From: Akkermansia sp.
GTDB taxonomy: Bacteria > Verrucomicrobiota > Verrucomicrobiia > Verrucomicrobiales > Akkermansiaceae
Assembly: GCA_017521145.1 (NCBI GenBank)
Contig: JAFXDR010000169.1
Span: forward strand, 1-40,833
Direction of reading: 5' to 3'
DNA: 40,833 bases
In this document: piece by piece, positions 1 through 8,474 of the stretch
Layout of the letters: every line of letters begins with the position of its first letter
How positions within the stretch are numbered: position 1 is the stretch's first letter
Translations under genes and position numbers: made by a program
Notes under the pieces: generated by a model
What the model saw: the letters and a program-made list of their open reading frames with translations, nothing else
The model's database searches: none
What the model was told of the DNA's origin: nothing

Positions 1-192
1 CTGCTCACGGTGCACAAAATCCGCATCCTGGCCACGCGGCGCAATATCTCCAACGTGGAAATCAGCGGGCAGAAACTCATGCTCACCCGCAACAACGACT
101 ATATTCTGGACAACAAGCGCTTCCCCCGCCTCCAGAAAATCCGCCCTCACGATAAGCTCCACGAGGCCCTGCGCTTGCTCCAGAGTATGTGA
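1..192 (+). CDS. mfd: C-terminal end of transcription-repair coupling factor Mfd (partial)
   Basis: The frame is open from the first base of the window and ends at TGA 190-192, so only the last 63 residues are present; the GTG at 10 is internal, not a start. The tail reads as an alternation of short strands and helices (KIRILATRRNI, VEISGQKLMLT, KFPRL-type NKRFPRLQKI, KLHEALRLLQSM). This resembles the C-terminal TRCF/D7 domain of Mfd, the SF2 translocase that removes stalled RNA polymerase and recruits UvrA. The assignment rests on remembered family pattern only, with no catalytic motif in view, so it is moderate. An array of hairpins starts 7 bases after the stop. Confidence 0.55.
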   Translation: MLTVHKIRILATRRNISNVEISGQKLMLTRNNDYILDNKRFPRLQKIRPHDKLHEALRLLQSM

Positions 193-430: not shown

Positions 431-1450
431 TCACGCTGCCCAGAATTGGGCAGAGGCGCGCACCCCGCGTTGGTCCACATACCGCGTTCGCAGCAGCGTA
501 GCATCCCGGTGGCCTATTTCCACCTGCAGCTCCGCATAGCTGCGGAAATGGCTCAGATGATAACTCGCAAAGGTATGCCGCAGCGCATCCTGCGGCCAGG
601 GGTGAGCGGGGGAGCCCCACCCCGCTGCGCGGCGCAGCTCCCGCCAGTGCCGCAGCCAGCCCGGCGGGCATATCCTCTCCCCGTCCGCCCGACGGTGCGC
701 CCGCAGAATCCGCAGCAGCGGCTTGTGAATCGTCACCCTCCGCGCACCGCCTGTCTTGCTGTGCTGTGGCAGGATATAAATCGCCCGCGCCCGCAAATCC
801 ACCTGTGCCCAGGTGAGCCTCTCCACCTCATGCGGGCGGATGCCGGCATACAGCATCATCCCCACCGCCGCCGCGCAGCTGCCATCGTGATAAGCCTCTG
901 CCGTCTGCCGCAAGTCCTTAATCTCCTGCGGCGTCAGAATCGGCACCTGCTTCTCCACCACCCGCGGAGCCTCCACCTTTGAAACCGGATTCTCGCTGCA
1001 CCAGCCCCGCTTCACCGCCGTGCCGAATACCCCGCTGAGGATTAAGCGCGCCTTCTGCCGCTGCCGCGGTGTATCAAAGGCCATCTCAATATACCGCGCA
1101 CACTCCTGCGCCGAAATCGCCCGCACCTTCCGCCGCGCCAGCCCCGGACACCGCTTCATGAACCGCCGCGTGAAATACCGGAAATCATACACCGTGCGCA
1201 CCCGCCTCTCCCGCCGCTCCTCCAGCGCGAAGGCGACCGCCTTTTCAAATGACACGGTGCGTTCCTGCTTCTTCAGCTCCTCCACCCCCGCTGCTATGCA
1301 CCGCCTTGCCCTTTTCAGACTCCCGCGTCCGGCAGCCATCGACTCTTTGGCAATTATCGCCACCTCCATCAAGTCCTCCCCGGCACTCTTCAATACTGCC
1401 AGCGCCGCCATTTCTTCTCTTGTCAGTTCTACCTTCATTGCTCGTCGCAT
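431..1450 (-). CDS. Tyrosine recombinase / phage-type integrase
   Basis: A 339-residue site-specific recombinase. Residues 65-160 resemble a SAM-like core-binding domain (YDFRYFTRRF, LILSGVFGTAVKRGW). The catalytic domain shows Arg205 (GIRPHEVERLTW), Lys232 (HSKTGG), Arg291 in DALRHTFASY, His314 (IGHRD) and the nucleophile Tyr324 (TRYVD). The first histidine of the usual HxxR box is Asp288 (DALR); an acidic residue here seems to recur in verrucomicrobial relatives, so activity is likely retained. The start at 1450 has a promoter (TATAAT at 1481-1486, minus) about 30 bases upstream; an alternative ATG lies four codons downstream. It diverges from the giant surface-protein gene, and a 14-bp inverted repeat encloses the shared promoter region. 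It may act on the island ends or on that inverted repeat. Confidence 0.9.
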   Translation of the reverse strand: MRRAMKVELTREEMAALAVLKSAGEDLMEVAIIAKESMAAGRGSLKRARRCIAAGVEELKKQERTVSFEKAVAFALEERRERRVRTVYDFRYFTRRFMKRCPGLARRKVRAISAQECARYIEMAFDTPRQRQKARLILSGVFGTAVKRGWCSENPVSKVEAPRVVEKQVPILTPQEIKDLRQTAEAYHDGSCAAAVGMMLYAGIRPHEVERLTWAQVDLRARAIYILPQHSKTGGARRVTIHKPLLRILRAHRRADGERICPPGWLRHWRELRRAAGWGSPAHPWPQDALRHTFASYHLSHFRSYAELQVEIGHRDATLLRTRYVDQRGVRASAQFWAA

Positions 1451-1463
1451 TTGGAATCCGTAA
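1450..1463 (+). repeat. Left arm of a perfect 14-bp inverted repeat
   Basis: TTTGGAATCCGTAA here is the exact reverse complement of TTACGGATTCCAAA at 1587-1600. The two arms enclose 123 bases (1464-1586) that contain the recombinase promoter and the -35 of the giant-gene promoter. The arm overlaps the last base of the recombinase start codon. Confidence 0.85.
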
Positions 1464-1473
1464 ATAACGGATT
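1455..1473. promoter_or_regulatory. Palindromic operator-like site in the recombinase leader
   Basis: AATCCGT-AAATA-ACGGATT is a perfect 7-bp inverted repeat lying between the predicted transcription start (near 1474) and the start codon (1450) of the recombinase gene. TTTGGAAT is also directly repeated at 1450-1457 and 1473-1480. Placement suggests repression or recombinase binding. Whether it acts as DNA site or RNA hairpin cannot be decided from sequence. Confidence 0.55.
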
Positions 1474-1480
1474 TTGGAAT

Positions 1481-1510
1481 ATTATACCCCCAATGAGTTA
1501 TCCATGTCAG
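1481..1510 (-). promoter_or_regulatory. Promoter of the recombinase gene
   Basis: On the minus strand CTGACA (1505-1510), an 18-bp spacer and TATAAT (1481-1486). The start would be near 1474, giving a leader of about 24 bases. Confidence 0.6.
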
Positions 1511-1581
1511 AACCTTCCGCGTACCTGATGAAAAGCTGTACCCTGTTTTTGATAATTCTTTGATTAAAACAGTTTGTGTGC

Positions 1582-1610
1582 TTGACTTACGGATTCCAAA
1601 AGCGTATTAT
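1582..1610 (+). promoter_or_regulatory. Promoter of the giant surface-protein gene
   Basis: TTGACT (1582-1587), 17-bp spacer, TATTAT (1605-1610). The predicted transcription start near 1617 leaves a leader of about 54 bases before ATG 1671 and excludes the in-frame TTG at 1560. The right arm of the 14-bp inverted repeat covers the last base of the -35 and most of the spacer, so inversion of the enclosed segment would replace the -35. Confidence 0.7.
1587..1600 (-). repeat. Right arm of the perfect 14-bp inverted repeat
   Basis: TTACGGATTCCAAA, the reverse complement of 1450-1463, lies between the -35 and -10 of the giant-gene promoter. Confidence 0.85.
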
Positions 1611-1670: not shown

Positions 1671-4600
1671 ATGAAACTGCATCTCCCTATTTCTCTTTTT
1701 CGTGCTATAATGGCGGTGATTTTGTCCACCCCTGTATTTGTAAATACTCTTGCCTCTGAAGCTGTTACTTTCTATACACAAACAACGATAGCAGACAATA
1801 ACGCCACAGCAGAAATTGAGAACAGCATTCCTTACTATACAAATGGCAAATTGACTTTATACACCCAGCAGGAAAACCCAAGTTATAGCTCATATGAAAA
1901 AATATCATTTGAGAATATTCAACCTAATGCAATAGTAGGGGGAAGAAGCAGCACAATTTCTCTGTCTGCTAATGGCGAGGTTTCTTTTATCGGAAATGGA
2001 ACAGCTGATTATATAGCGGGAGGAATATACGGAGCCACAGGCGGTAGTATTGAGCTGTCAGAGAATGAAAGTATATCTTTCATCGAGAACGTAGGAAAAT
2101 CAGCAGGCGCAATTTGGAAAGGAAGCAATAATACACTTGTGAGCATATGCGACAATGGAAATGTGTTATTCAGTAAAAACAAAGCCATGAATCTGTCTTC
2201 CACAGGGGGGGTTCTGAACGGTGGTGCGATTGACGCAGGCTGTACATTAAATATAAGAAACAATGATAATGTTTTATTTGAGAAAAACTTAAGCAATCTA
2301 CAATCTTTTTATTACCTGCATGCGATTAGCGCCTCGGATAGTACAATGTATGGAGGTAGTGAATTTTCAGCAGGTGAAGGCAAAGTAATTGAATTCAGGG
2401 AAGCGGTACATGTGGGTGGTTCACATAGTGTGGACTGGAATAGAGATTACACCGTAAATGGAGAAACCGTGAAACAAACCGGTGATATTGTTTTTACTGG
2501 CGCTTTCGTAGAAGAAAATTTAAATGAAATGCTGCAGAATGAGGGAGTAGGCCGCTCCGCAAGTACAAAGGAACTTTTATGGTCTCGTTGTTCACTATTC
2601 ATCGGTGAATCCGTTTTACATGGAGGTCGCCTACGAATAGAGGATGGTGCTATTTACCGTGGTCAAGGTATGACTGTAGCGGAAGGTTCAGACGCGACCG
2701 TCCGATTACAGAATGCGGCACTATGCCACGGTGGTTATACCTTAACGTTCAACCCCGGTACCACATTAGAATTACACGGGAATAATGCAATCAGTGGGAC
2801 TGTCGATATGCACTCAGGTAGTAAAATAGTCATTGACGAGGGTATCACTGACATCAACGGGGCTCTATATTTCTTGGGCAATGCCACATTTAATCTCAAT
2901 GGAGATAAAGACAGTTCCAGCAATAATCAGGTTCTCTTATGCGTGGCTAATGAAGTTTATGGATGGAGTAATGTTCAACAAAACATAGCCAGTGGTGGCA
3001 CTTTAACATGGGTGGATGATTTATTGATACTGAATTATGATGCAAATAGCTACAATCGCCATTTTAGAGGGAGTGCTGTGTATAATTCTACGCAATCAAA
3101 TGACTTAATGCTACACCACTATAACAGTGTCGAATTTAATGGTATACGCAACAGCAACTCTGGAGGCGCGCTTACGGATTCATTATACGCATCGGGAAAT
3201 GACAGAGATAACACCTCTCTGAGATATAATGATATCGTAATTTTCAGTGGAAATTCTTCAAGTAGTTCTGATACCTATGCTCAAGGTGGTGCAATCTACG
3301 TAGGTGGTAGCAACAGCACGGGAACCACCATAATATCAGACAATGGTAGTGTAATTTTCGACGCTAATACTGCCAGCAGCTCAGCGTCATGGGCAAATGG
3401 GGGTGCTATTGTTGCTAAAAATTTAACATTAAACAATAATGGTAGCGTGATTTTCAGTGGAAACGTAGTTTCGAGCGACACGAGTTCACCTGCAGGAGGA
3501 GCAATCGCCATTGTCTCGCGCGGCGAGCTAAACATCCGCAACAATGATTCCGTTCTCTTTGAGAAGAATGTGGAGAAATCTGGTAGTACCTATTGCTTGC
3601 GCAGCATCCATACCTTTGGTAACAGTCCTTCTGTGATTTCTCTTTCCTCAGCAGCCGGTAAGAGTATCGAGTTCCGGGATTCAGTGTATATAGGGTCCGG
3701 CACCACAGTTAATCTGAATGCGGATTATACGGATGCGAATGGTGTAGTACACAAGCAGCAGGGCGATATCATCTTTACCGGTAAGTATGCGGAAACGCAC
3801 CTGAACGAGATTCTAGCAGCGGATGAACAAGGGCGCACCGCCACGGCAAAGGAGATACTCAACTCCCGCACAACTTCGGTGGCAGCCATGACGAATCTCT
3901 ACGGAGGTCGGCTGCGCGTGGAGGATGGAGCTATCTACAAGGGATATGGCATCACTGCCCACGAAGGCTCGGCAGCCACGGTGCGGATGAAAGACGCCTC
4001 ACAGGAGCATGTCGGGTATAACATCACCATGAATGCCGGTACTGCGCTGGAATTAGAGGGCAGCAATTCCATAACAGCTGCCAACCTGATAATGCAGGAA
4101 GGAAGCAATCTGCATTTTGCGCTGGGTGAGACGAACAGGGAGAGCGCAGCTCTCACTCTAGATGGCTCGCTCCTGCTAAATGGAGCTGTGAATCTGAGCT
4201 TTGATCTGAACTTTGATGTGACAATTGGTGTGTACAAGTTGGTATCCCTATCCGGCAGTGAACTGTTGGATTGGTCTCAATTAACAGTTGCTGAAGGGAG
4301 TGGAAGTGGCTACAATTTTACCCTGAACAGTGATAAAACCGGCCTGTCTCTTGAGATTTTATGGACGCAAATGGAATTACCCCAAACAGAGGGAGCATTG
4401 ACTCTTTCGGACGTTACATGCGGCCAAATGAATTTAGCGGATACTTATAGCTATGACTCCATATCAGTTACACGTGGGTGCTACAGTCTCGTAGGCAGCG
4501 GCAGTGTGGGGGTGAGCGGGCTGCTTTCCGTTACCGGCGGGGCAGATTTGACGCTGGATGTGGACACCACGGCTATGGTGGTAGAAGTAGGGGATGATTC

Positions 4601-7600
4601 CTCGTTGAGCCTGCAGAAGGGGTTGAATCTGGTATCGCTGATGACGCTGGATGATGAGGAGACGGAGTCCGCCAAGGCGATTTCCGTGGGGCGGAATGCC
4701 GAACTGAGCCTGACGGATGCAGCCCTGCTGGGGCAGGTGGCCACAGCGGATGAGACATCGGCGGTGTACTACCAGACGGAAGCAGGTGATAAGCTGCTGA
4801 AGTTTACTGGCGAGATGGGCAGCGCCGGTCTGAATCTGGCACTGGGAGAGGATGGCAAGACAGTCAGCGCCACGGACAGCGCAGGCTTCACGGGCAACAT
4901 CACCGTGCTTTCCGGTACAACGCTGGTGAATGAAGCGACCTCAACCACCGATGGGGTACCCTTTGGTGATACCTATGCCACAGCTGCAGACAAGACGATA
5001 ACGGTGCAAGGGGGCGCCGCGCTGGATATCAACGGCCGCGAGACATATTACCACCTGGTGCTGGAGAAGGATGCTCTGCTGACCAACAGCGGCACAGACA
5101 CGCACCACGACTGGAAGGGGATTCCAGTGATTGACCTCAGCGGGAATGCCGAGGTGAATGCCGCAGCGCAGATTTGCATGGGGGGTGCAGATCTTGCCAC
5201 GAACACCCTCAACCTGAACGGCAATACCCTTACCAAGACCGGAAGTGCCAATCTGGTGCTGCGGAATACATGCATAAACGAAGGTACACTGGCCGTGAAT
5301 GGGGGCTTGGTGCGGTTCATGGGCAACACCTCTACCGCCGCAGGAACTGGCATACAGGTGAATAATGGCGGCACCCTGTGGATTTCTGAAGGCACGGGCA
5401 ACTACGCCGGCTCACTGGTGTTGAACACGGGGGGACATGTGTATTTGGGCGAAGGTCCCAGTGGTACGCTGGGTGGGGATAACGGAACCAATTCCCAGAC
5501 TATTTCCCTGACGGGGCTGGGTAAGTTGGAGCTGGCCGGTGGCACCATGACCTTCCGTGGAGAAAATTTAAACATGGGCACGGTAGATGTAACGGCAGCC
5601 AGCACGTTGGAACTGTGGGACCAGACGGGCAGCGATAGTGTGGCCACAACGGCGTCCACGATATCCACGTTGAACATGTCAGCCAATCTGAACCTGGCAA
5701 CCACCTGGAAAAGCTCGCTGAATATCGCAAGCCTGACCGGCAGCGGCGAGCTGCTAGTGGGCAGCAGCAAGCAAAAGCACAAGGTATCGGTGCAGGATCT
5801 CAGCGGATTCACAGGCACCTTTGCCATTCGTGGGGCCAATAGCACACTGTCGTTGAATCTGGGTGGAGATGATGAGATGAATGCGGCTCGGGTGACAAAG
5901 GATGATTCGGCAGTGCTGATTCTGGAGGGTAGCGGTACCTATTGCTTCAGTAACCTGGAAAATGTAGCCGCAGCAGCAACTGGCATTTCCGATATTCAGT
6001 TCGGCGATACCTGGAGCGGGAAGATTGCACTGAGAAACAGTACAGCTACCGGCATGGAGCTGGATGATTTTGGCGGCGCCGGCAAGACTATCGTTATCGA
6101 AGGTGTAAGCGGCTGGTTCGCTTACAATCGCACTGTGGAAAGCCACCTGCAACTGGTAGAATCCGGGCTTACCCTGCTGGATACCAGTAAGAAAACATAC
6201 ACCTATACCGGAGGCATCAGCGGCAGTGGCGATTTTACCATCAAGAGCAAGGCAGATAGCACCTACACCGGCACCTATAATTTGAGCGGTGACCTCTCCG
6301 CCTGGGACGGTGCTTTCCGCGTGCAGCAGAGCGAAGATAACACCAATACAGCCCCTGTCAACCTGAACCTCACTGGCGGCGGCACGCTCTTCAGTGGTAC
6401 GGATGGCTGCGGTGTCCTCATGGAACGCACGGGTGAAATGAATGTGACCATCGGCAATGCAGGGACGGCCACTACCATGCAAGGCGACATCAGGAATGTG
6501 GGTGTGACCAATGAAGGAGTAACCACCTATGGCACCGTGAATGTGACCTTGAATAATACTGTGGATGCACAGGGAGATATCATTGCAAGCCGCATCAACG
6601 TGGGCGCGGGTGCCGACATTAATTTCAGCGGTACAGTGCAGGCAAATCAATGGACCGTGGGAGATGATGCCCGCCTGGTTATTGAGAGTGGCAGTAAGGT
6701 ATACCTGAGCGAAGCGGACAATGGAACTCTGAGGGGCGACGTGGGAACTGATGATGTCGGCACCCTGGATTTGACCCGCACGGCTGGAGTGGAACTGGCC
6801 GGCGGCACTTTGTTCTACCGCGGCAAAAATATCACGTTCGGCTCGGTTGACGTGACAGAAGACAGTGTGCTGGAAATCTGGGATCAGACCGGTGTAGATG
6901 GGGTGGCCTCTCATGCCTGTACCATTGACACGCTGAATCTGAATGCCTCGCTGGAGCAGAAAACGACCTGGAAATGCACGCTCGACATAGGCTCACTCAC
7001 CGGTAGCGGACCATTGACCGTGAGCAGCAGGAATGAGAAACACTATGTGACGCTTAACGATGTCAGCGCGTACACTGGTACAGTAAGCATCAGCGGAGCC
7101 AATACAACCTTGACACTGAACATAGTGAAGGATGCCGTTGTAAATGCATCCCTCGTAACGAAGGATAATGCCTCGCATCTGGTGTTGAAAGGCCAGGGCT
7201 CGTACAATATCGGCACCGCTCGAAGTCTGGCCGCAGGCGTGCGTTTTGCCGAGGATTGGAAAGGCAGTGTGCGGCTGACGGGAGCGCTGGCCGGCGAAAC
7301 TCTCAGCGGGCTGAACCAGGAAAGCTCCTGGGTGGAGCTGTTCGGGGTGAGCGGCTACCTGAGCCAGGCCGATGCCGCGGTTGGCGCACAGACATACGGA
7401 ATGAACCTGAAGCTGACGGATGCAGGAGAGACGGCTGCCTGGAATCTGAATGATGGCTGGAATGGAGATGTCCGCACCTTTACTGGTATGGTATGTGGTA
7501 CAGGAACCCTGAACCGCAACCATTACAAGGGGACGGAACAGACTCTGATTTTTGCCGGAGATGTGTCCGGATGGAGCGGTGCTTTGGAACACAATGCTAC

Positions 7601-8474
7601 GTCAGCCACTAATAATGGACAAAAGGTGAAGACGAATGTGACATTCAACGGCTCTTCCGAAATCAACGTGGCGATGCGGACGAATGGAAAGGGTGAGTTG
7701 AATGTGACGCTGGATGACGCAAACCTGGCTGCTGGCAGCAAGGTGACGGTGAATAATGCCGTTTCCGCTACCAATTTCACCGTGACAGAGGGAACTGCTG
7801 CTAAGCTGAATAACACGCTACAAGTATCCGGGGTGGTAGAACTCATGGCCGCAGCGAGCCTGGAACTGGGTGAGGTAGTTTCGCTTTCTGCCGGTGCGGG
7901 CAGCGCACAACTGAACACCGTAAGCCTGAATTCAACCGGAATACGCGGAACCGGAGATGCGTCTTCGCTGACCAATCTGCAGATGCAAAACCTGAGCGGC
8001 AGCTTTGCCGTGGCAGATGTGGCAATGCATGAGGTGGAGATAAGCGGCAGCAATTCCGCGCTGACTCTCAGCAACGTGAGTCTGGATGATTCCTGTACTA
8101 TTGACCTTGGGTCAGCAGGAACGGTTACCTTTGATAATTCGACCCTGTGTCTCACGGTGCCGGAGTTGTCATGGGATGGTTCAGAGGTATTGTATATCGA
8201 CTGCTCTGCCTTGTTGACCGGCAATGCCCTTGGCAACCTGTTGATTGATTTGAACCATTCCGTTGACGAAATAGTAAACCTGGGCTACCAGACAGTGGCC
8301 GTTGATTTCGGGGCAAATGTGAATACTACTAACCTGAACCTGAATCTTTCCCAAGCGCAATTCACAGGTTTTATGGGTAGCATTGCCCAGTTTAATCTGG
8401 TTCCCGAACCTGCTACGGCAACATTGGGACTTAGCGCTCTTTTGCTGCTGTGCGCCCGCCGCAGGAGAAAATAA
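1671..8474 (+). CDS. Giant Pmp/autotransporter-like surface protein with PEP-CTERM-type tail
   Basis: 2267 residues from ATG 1671, the first start downstream of the promoter; it opens with a signal peptide (MKLHLPISLFRAIMAVILS, cleavage near TLASEA). The N-terminal third has repeated GGAI/GGAL and VIFSGN, VIFDAN, VLFEKN motifs, the GGA(I/L/V)-FxxN pair typical of chlamydial polymorphic membrane proteins. The rest is beta-helix-like, resembling autotransporter-associated beta-strand repeats. Two large segments are duplicated: about 2260-2830 with 3530-4110 (each with FTG, GGRLR-EDGAIY-G and TLEL/ALEL steps), and about 5400-6320 with 6690-7600 (each with ELAGGT-RG-N and VSGWF/VSGYL steps). The C-terminus VPEPATATLG, hydrophobic stretch, CARRRRK is a PEP-CTERM/exosortase-type sorting signal; there is no autotransporter barrel. 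G+C rises along the gene (22/60 at 1801-1860, 41/60 at 7261-7320). Likely an exposed adhesin or fibre protein; ligand unknown. Confidence 0.85.
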   Translation: MKLHLPISLFRAIMAVILSTPVFVNTLASEAVTFYTQTTIADNNATAEIENSIPYYTNGKLTLYTQQENPSYSSYEKISFENIQPNAIVGGRSSTISLSANGEVSFIGNGTADYIAGGIYGATGGSIELSENESISFIENVGKSAGAIWKGSNNTLVSICDNGNVLFSKNKAMNLSSTGGVLNGGAIDAGCTLNIRNNDNVLFEKNLSNLQSFYYLHAISASDSTMYGGSEFSAGEGKVIEFREAVHVGGSHSVDWNRDYTVNGETVKQTGDIVFTGAFVEENLNEMLQNEGVGRSASTKELLWSRCSLFIGESVLHGGRLRIEDGAIYRGQGMTVAEGSDATVRLQNAALCHGGYTLTFNPGTTLELHGNNAISGTVDMHSGSKIVIDEGITDINGALYFLGNATFNLNGDKDSSSNNQVLLCVANEVYGWSNVQQNIASGGTLTWVDDLLILNYDANSYNRHFRGSAVYNSTQSNDLMLHHYNSVEFNGIRNSNSGGALTDSLYASGNDRDNTSLRYNDIVIFSGNSSSSSDTYAQGGAIYVGGSNSTGTTIISDNGSVIFDANTASSSASWANGGAIVAKNLTLNNNGSVIFSGNVVSSDTSSPAGGAIAIVSRGELNIRNNDSVLFEKNVEKSGSTYCLRSIHTFGNSPSVISLSSAAGKSIEFRDSVYIGSGTTVNLNADYTDANGVVHKQQGDIIFTGKYAETHLNEILAADEQGRTATAKEILNSRTTSVAAMTNLYGGRLRVEDGAIYKGYGITAHEGSAATVRMKDASQEHVGYNITMNAGTALELEGSNSITAANLIMQEGSNLHFALGETNRESAALTLDGSLLLNGAVNLSFDLNFDVTIGVYKLVSLSGSELLDWSQLTVAEGSGSGYNFTLNSDKTGLSLEILWTQMELPQTEGALTLSDVTCGQMNLADTYSYDSISVTRGCYSLVGSGSVGVSGLLSVTGGADLTLDVDTTAMVVEVGDDSSLSLQKGLNLVSLMTLDDEETESAKAISVGRNAELSLTDAALLGQVATADETSAVYYQTEAGDKLLKFTGEMGSAGLNLALGEDGKTVSATDSAGFTGNITVLSGTTLVNEATSTTDGVPFGDTYATAADKTITVQGGAALDINGRETYYHLVLEKDALLTNSGTDTHHDWKGIPVIDLSGNAEVNAAAQICMGGADLATNTLNLNGNTLTKTGSANLVLRNTCINEGTLAVNGGLVRFMGNTSTAAGTGIQVNNGGTLWISEGTGNYAGSLVLNTGGHVYLGEGPSGTLGGDNGTNSQTISLTGLGKLELAGGTMTFRGENLNMGTVDVTAASTLELWDQTGSDSVATTASTISTLNMSANLNLATTWKSSLNIASLTGSGELLVGSSKQKHKVSVQDLSGFTGTFAIRGANSTLSLNLGGDDEMNAARVTKDDSAVLILEGSGTYCFSNLENVAAAATGISDIQFGDTWSGKIALRNSTATGMELDDFGGAGKTIVIEGVSGWFAYNRTVESHLQLVESGLTLLDTSKKTYTYTGGISGSGDFTIKSKADSTYTGTYNLSGDLSAWDGAFRVQQSEDNTNTAPVNLNLTGGGTLFSGTDGCGVLMERTGEMNVTIGNAGTATTMQGDIRNVGVTNEGVTTYGTVNVTLNNTVDAQGDIIASRINVGAGADINFSGTVQANQWTVGDDARLVIESGSKVYLSEADNGTLRGDVGTDDVGTLDLTRTAGVELAGGTLFYRGKNITFGSVDVTEDSVLEIWDQTGVDGVASHACTIDTLNLNASLEQKTTWKCTLDIGSLTGSGPLTVSSRNEKHYVTLNDVSAYTGTVSISGANTTLTLNIVKDAVVNASLVTKDNASHLVLKGQGSYNIGTARSLAAGVRFAEDWKGSVRLTGALAGETLSGLNQESSWVELFGVSGYLSQADAAVGAQTYGMNLKLTDAGETAAWNLNDGWNGDVRTFTGMVCGTGTLNRNHYKGTEQTLIFAGDVSGWSGALEHNATSATNNGQKVKTNVTFNGSSEINVAMRTNGKGELNVTLDDANLAAGSKVTVNNAVSATNFTVTEGTAAKLNNTLQVSGVVELMAAASLELGEVVSLSAGAGSAQLNTVSLNSTGIRGTGDASSLTNLQMQNLSGSFAVADVAMHEVEISGSNSALTLSNVSLDDSCTIDLGSAGTVTFDNSTLCLTVPELSWDGSEVLYIDCSALLTGNALGNLLIDLNHSVDEIVNLGYQTVAVDFGANVNTTNLNLNLSQAQFTGFMGSIAQFNLVPEPATATLGLSALLLLCARRRRK

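Follow-up and report, generated by a model that had tools for sequence, protein, structure and literature searches.

The question raised by this locus is whether the short region between a tyrosine recombinase gene and the gene for a giant surface protein is an invertible promoter, a segment that the recombinase turns over and that controls expression of both genes, as a first-pass annotation had proposed. The stretch of DNA analysed here (the window, 40,833 nucleotides) comes from a ruminant-gut-type Akkermansia MAG, in which it is contig C7 (genome 2.0 Mb, 204 contigs, 85% complete). We consider it very likely that the adjacent recombinase inverts a 123-bp segment and that the locus forms a self-contained phase-variation switch of the giant surface gene, and the switch in the window is real and probably functional.

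Layout of the locus

The elements of the proposed switch are as follows.

431 to 1450, minus strand: tyrosine recombinase, presumed invertase, 339-aa frame (Pfam Phage_integrase, E 4.5e-12)
1446 to 1463: recombinase-side arm of the inverted repeat, CGCATTTGGAATCCGTAA, with the locus-private triplet TGG at 1452-1454
1464 to 1586: invertible segment, 123 bp; homologous segments elsewhere lie the other way round with respect to the recombinase
1481 to 1510, minus strand: P2, putative internal promoter, CTGACA (1510-1505)-18-TATAAT (1486-1481), 11 of 12 positions as in the consensus; directed at the recombinase now; inversion would turn it toward the giant gene
1582 to 1587, plus strand: -35 half of P1, TTGACT, 17 bp from its -10; TTGAC lies within the segment and is kept at one segment end across the family
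1587 to 1604: target-side arm, TTACGGATTCCAAAAGCG, which doubles as promoter spacer, with the triplet CCA at 1596-1598
1605 to 1610, plus strand: -10 half of P1, TATTAT, fixed, beyond the repeat
1671 to 8474, plus strand: giant surface protein, 2267 aa, with the N-terminal signal-like start MKLHLP and a PEP-CTERM-like tail, VPEPATATLGLSALLLLCARRRRK

The first-pass annotation had described a perfect 14-bp inverted repeat (1450-1463 and 1587-1600) enclosing 123 nt, and both the repeat and the count are borne out. The repeat is in fact longer than 14 bp, with 17 of 18 positions matching over 1446-1463 and 1587-1604. Both inverted arms contain a half-site, CGGATT / AATCCG (1455-1460 and 1590-1595); the outer half-site has diverged, reading AAAGCG / AAATGCG instead of AATCCG, and an additional half-site copy, ATAACGGATT, adjoins the recombinase-side arm at 1464-1473. 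The recombinase promoter and the -35 of the giant gene, both said to lie in the segment, were likewise found there, and a promoter scan of 1400-1720 returned 3 matches against 0.7 expected in shuffles. A conserved dyad, GGAAnGnnGTnCC, sits mid-segment at 1527-1543 and at the same place in related invertible segments; possibly it is a site for an accessory protein.

The neighbouring gene does encode a tyrosine recombinase, as had been proposed. Its sole Pfam match is Phage_integrase, not the resolvase family that would mark a serine invertase of the Hin/Gin type, and no solved structure matched it by sequence. The frame is intact, and R205, K232, R291, H314 and Y324 are conserved in 77 recombinase relatives; the HxxR motif reads DxxR in 77 of 77 related recombinases, with Asp in place of His at residue 288 of P0001 (Asp288). 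The conserved start codon, ATG at 1438-1436, lies only 7 nt beyond the arm, which leaves no room for a promoter between arm and gene. We presume that this recombinase is the actor of inversion.

Beyond the recombinase gene, at 190-295, lie four short GC-rich hairpins whose stems differ and which are separated by a constant GATATCGTYC linker. This array has an RNA fold z of -6.15 and no match in Rfam. The spaced repeat ATATCGTN{10,30}ATATCGT has 37 copies in the window's genome and as many as 92 in related genomes, compared with 0 matches for the reversed pattern; its spacers are mostly hairpins, and the arrays often come in twos, face to face.

A family of related switches

We collected 88 relatives of the window recombinase (45-100% identical), and a repeat matching at 13 or more of 16 positions lies upstream of 80 of the 88. 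Shuffled upstream regions reached 13/16 in 10 of 88 cases and 14/16 in 1 of 88. Three unclear loci among the 80 were removed, and the 77 clear ones were kept. The GTDB collection contains 32 stretches with the pattern AATCCGTA-(103..128)-GCTTGACTTACGGATT, every one from an Akkermansia or Akkermansiaceae MAG, and within the genus Akkermansia 9 of 76 genomes have it; where hosts are named, they are cattle, buffalo, sheep, goat, yak and water deer.

Nearly all loci of this family carry TTGAC (or TTGCA) directly inside one arm. When this -35 is set at the target side, TAnnnT follows 16-18 bp away, beyond the arm, in 63 of 74 loci; when it is set at the recombinase side, a matching TAnnnT follows in 0 of 71. 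The segment thus holds the -35, and the -10 lies beyond the repeat, at the target side alone; the promoter is split by the crossover site, and because the arm is the promoter spacer, inversion joins or separates the two elements. The -35 points toward the recombinase, leaving the split promoter broken, in 68 loci and toward the target in 7, of which the window is one. At the P2 end of the segment, outward promoter scores exceed those of shuffles family-wide (p = 1.6e-5), while scores toward the opposite end fall below them (p = 0.001).

The switch in the window lineage might instead be a frozen remnant that no longer flips. One mismatch in the 18-bp arms and the extra half-site copy could be signs of this, as could the lack of any inverted copy of the exact window locus in the window's own genome, the comparison covering one genome per species. 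Outer-arm mismatches are, however, the rule across the family, the 14-bp core is perfect, and the recombinase frame, its catalytic residues and both promoters are intact, so that we regard this reading as improbable and keep to that of a working switch. A single one-mismatch match in contig C167 had no partner arm in the 14-bp search and was taken as chance.

Two members of the family differ in layout. At L141 (contig C48 of genome G045, about 4450-4660), three arms with the same spacer triplet lie alongside one recombinase, so that the locus could take up three or more arrangements. L056 (contig C24 of genome G015) belongs to the same inverton type, and the 14 kb analysed there contain no related recombinase; some switches may therefore be flipped in trans.

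Inversion at a related locus

Natural inversion is seen in a relative of the window locus. L188 (contig C65 of genome G072) and L190 (contig C31 of genome G068) are one locus in two genomes. Their target flanks agree at 175 of 180 positions and their segments at 179 of 188 (95%), the latter only when one is reversed, and the outer bases of each arm stay in place. Since flanks and outer arm bases are unchanged while the segment is reversed, the crossover lies within the shared core, ATTTAGAATCCG. Both orientations thus occur across the family and at one orthologous locus, and the exact window locus was seen in one orientation.

At L067 (contig C121 of genome G019, 6203-6443), a contig end, the recombinase flank and start are joined to both arms. 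A mixture of the two orientations in the sample would produce such a structure, and we take it as supporting, with an assembly artefact as another possible cause.

Inverted repeats around divergent promoters are typical of operators, and here the arms overlap a promoter spacer, so that a dimeric repressor or recombinase-like protein could bind both arms and loop the DNA without inverting it. This would leave unexplained why a relative exists in both orientations with its flanks unchanged, why orientation varies among loci, and why the adjacent gene encodes a recombinase that has kept its catalytic residues. We rejected the operator reading on the natural inversion, the recurring layout and the split promoter, and we consider it very improbable. 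The bases at the centre of the arms, described below, also speak against it.

Crossover triplets

Within the arm motif TTNNNAA, the two arms of a locus have identical triplets, whereas different loci have different ones. This agreement holds in 33 of 33 loci of the window's clade (0 of 5000 permutations at each position) and in 69 of 73 loci of the wider family against 11.3 expected; a repressor would not need such a match within loci and variation between them. Because the family loci had been chosen by arm similarity, which may introduce bias, we ran the test again on pairs for which distance was the sole criterion, namely neighbouring sites less than 400 bp apart in the genome of A. muciniphila ATCC BAA-835 (2,664,102 bp). 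The pattern CGGATTNNNAATCCG, with at most one mismatch, occurs at 100 places in this type genome, and the reversed pattern at 0. Inverted-identical triplets were found in 37 of 39 neighbouring pairs against 1.9 expected, with 25 distinct triplets among the 37; the two exceptions are neighbours that come from different pairs or from none. Having a private triplet at each locus is a simple rule, and it may prevent rearrangement of the chromosome through the many similar sites.

Target genes

The giant protein has the Pro-Glu-Pro, hydrophobic stretch and Arg cluster of a PEP-CTERM tail at its C-terminus. Its TIGR02595 score, 11.9 bits, falls under the 16-bit cut-off, and the sister targets L046 and L053 score above it (21.6 and 17.2 bits). 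Targets across the family include giant PEP-CTERM-like and autotransporter-like proteins, acyltransferases, glycosyltransferases and other surface-glycan enzymes. Two further copies of the switch lie in the window's genome: one in contig C89, which faces an acyltransferase and whose recombinase is truncated at its start by the end of the contig, and one in contig C173, with a recombinase 66% identical and an acetyltransferase-like target (PglD_N/hexapeptide).

At L044 (contig C50 of genome G015), the recombinase is 92% identical to that of the window and the invertible segments match, and the targets are unrelated: L044 has an acyltransferase-SGNH protein in place of the giant protein. Closely related recombinases with unrelated targets mean that switch and target are modular.

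Such modularity, together with the Phage_integrase family assignment, is what might be seen if the gene encoded a prophage or mobile-element integrase whose attachment site is marked by the repeats. Attachment sites, however, are direct repeats at element ends, not inverted repeats 123 bp apart; the layout of recombinase, repeat and target recurs dozens of times; and the neighbours are surface-glycan and surface-protein genes. The integrase reading was rejected because the layout recurs without phage context, and also on the split promoter and the natural inversion; its probability seems to us very low.

Proposed mechanism

In the mechanism we propose, the recombinase would cross over in the shared arm core TTNNNAATCCG, where NNN is private to the locus, and invert the 123-bp segment. 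In the present orientation, the in-segment -35 stands 17 bp from the fixed -10, and the giant surface protein would be transcribed, while the internal P2 would transcribe the recombinase. After inversion, the -35 would point toward the recombinase, where there is no -10, and P1 would be broken; P2 would no longer drive the recombinase, which would be made mainly in the present orientation. The positions of the elements fit the earlier prediction that inversion would strip TTGAC from the giant-gene -35 and point P2 at the giant gene. The departure of P2 from the recombinase may account for the strong predominance of the broken orientation in assemblies; the 68:7 excess fits a recombinase made mainly in the present orientation, with other causes possible. 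Because P2 would face the giant gene after inversion, the OFF state may not be silent, and the gene would perhaps be driven again.

Taken further, this last point leads to an alternative in which the giant gene is transcribed whichever way the segment has flipped, from P1 or from P2, and the gene truly switched ON and OFF is the recombinase. The predicted strength of P2 is at least equal to that of P1, and no terminator-like site was found between P2 and the giant gene. Against this, a strong P2 is confined to the window's subgroup of loci, and many other members of the family have a weak P2 or none, while the split promoter is a general feature, and the cps1 inverton has true ON/OFF states (PMC13343947). 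We therefore consider a mere exchange of promoters unlikely, yet worth keeping in mind, and favour a phase-variation switch of the giant gene. The original proposal of an invertible promoter controlling both genes draws support from the split promoter, the 68:7 orientations, the reversed segment of L188 and L190 and the CGGATT half-site, the effects on expression being predictions from sequence.

Comparison with known invertible promoters

A. muciniphila lives in mucus and has been studied extensively; its capsule and its surface proteins undergo phase variation. The Akkermansia inverton motif is CGGATT..AATCCG (Jiang et al. 2019, as cited in PMC13343947), and both orientations of Akkermansia invertons occur in published reads, with the group 138 inverton of A. 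muciniphila (2092093-2092283) changing orientation over time (PMC11892184). One of our site pairs, 2094059-2094248, has the same 190-bp span as this inverton at an offset of 1966, which we infer to reflect a different assembly. Like Akkermansia invertons, the window switch has CGGATT in its arms, a short invertible promoter and TTGAC beside one arm, and its kind occurs many times per genome with surface targets, including PEP-CTERM proteins; unlike them, its outer half-site has diverged to AAAGCG. On the strength of half-site, promoter position and targets, we place it among the Akkermansia invertons.

In the ruminant clade, every switch comes with a recombinase of its own next to it; the A. 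muciniphila type genome, in contrast, contains about 40 site pairs but five relatives of the window recombinase. At least two of these five have their own inverton (710770/710916 and 2436887/2437032). The gene beside the latter (2437097-2438092) adjoins CRISPR locus 1, where the integrase Amuc_2006 has been placed (PMC3048395), and by position only we equate the two. In the available portion of PMC11892184, invertases are linked by proximity to several inverton groups, none is named for group 138, and nearby invertases are described as generally not drivable by the inverton promoter; the window recombinase differs in that its start abuts the arm. Ruminant relatives in which switch and recombinase lie together thus point to five candidate invertase genes in the A. 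muciniphila type strain. The split promoter, a recombinase per switch and private triplets are absent from the papers covered, and we make no claim of novelty for them.

A broader reading, plausible but tentative and to our minds slightly short of an even chance, is that these loci are genus-wide, self-contained Akkermansia cassettes, in which a promoter is split by the crossover, the recombinase is made in one state, a private triplet bars cross-site recombination among dozens of sites per genome, and the same recombinase family provides the invertase of the A. muciniphila invertons.

Our findings may also be compared with switches of other gut bacteria. Capsule and surface-protein promoters of Bacteroides are likewise many per genome, concern surface glycans or proteins and involve tyrosine recombinases (PMC11892184; general knowledge), and they differ in repeat motifs and promoter type. 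By analogy, the window switch also resembles fimS-FimB/FimE of Escherichia coli, in which a short promoter segment, an adjacent tyrosine recombinase, a surface structure and orientation-linked recombinase expression are combined. In fimS, the entire promoter lies within the invertible segment. Here, unlike in fimS, the promoter is split and the recombinase would be transcribed from inside the segment, and a promoter divided by its own crossover site makes for an economical switch design.
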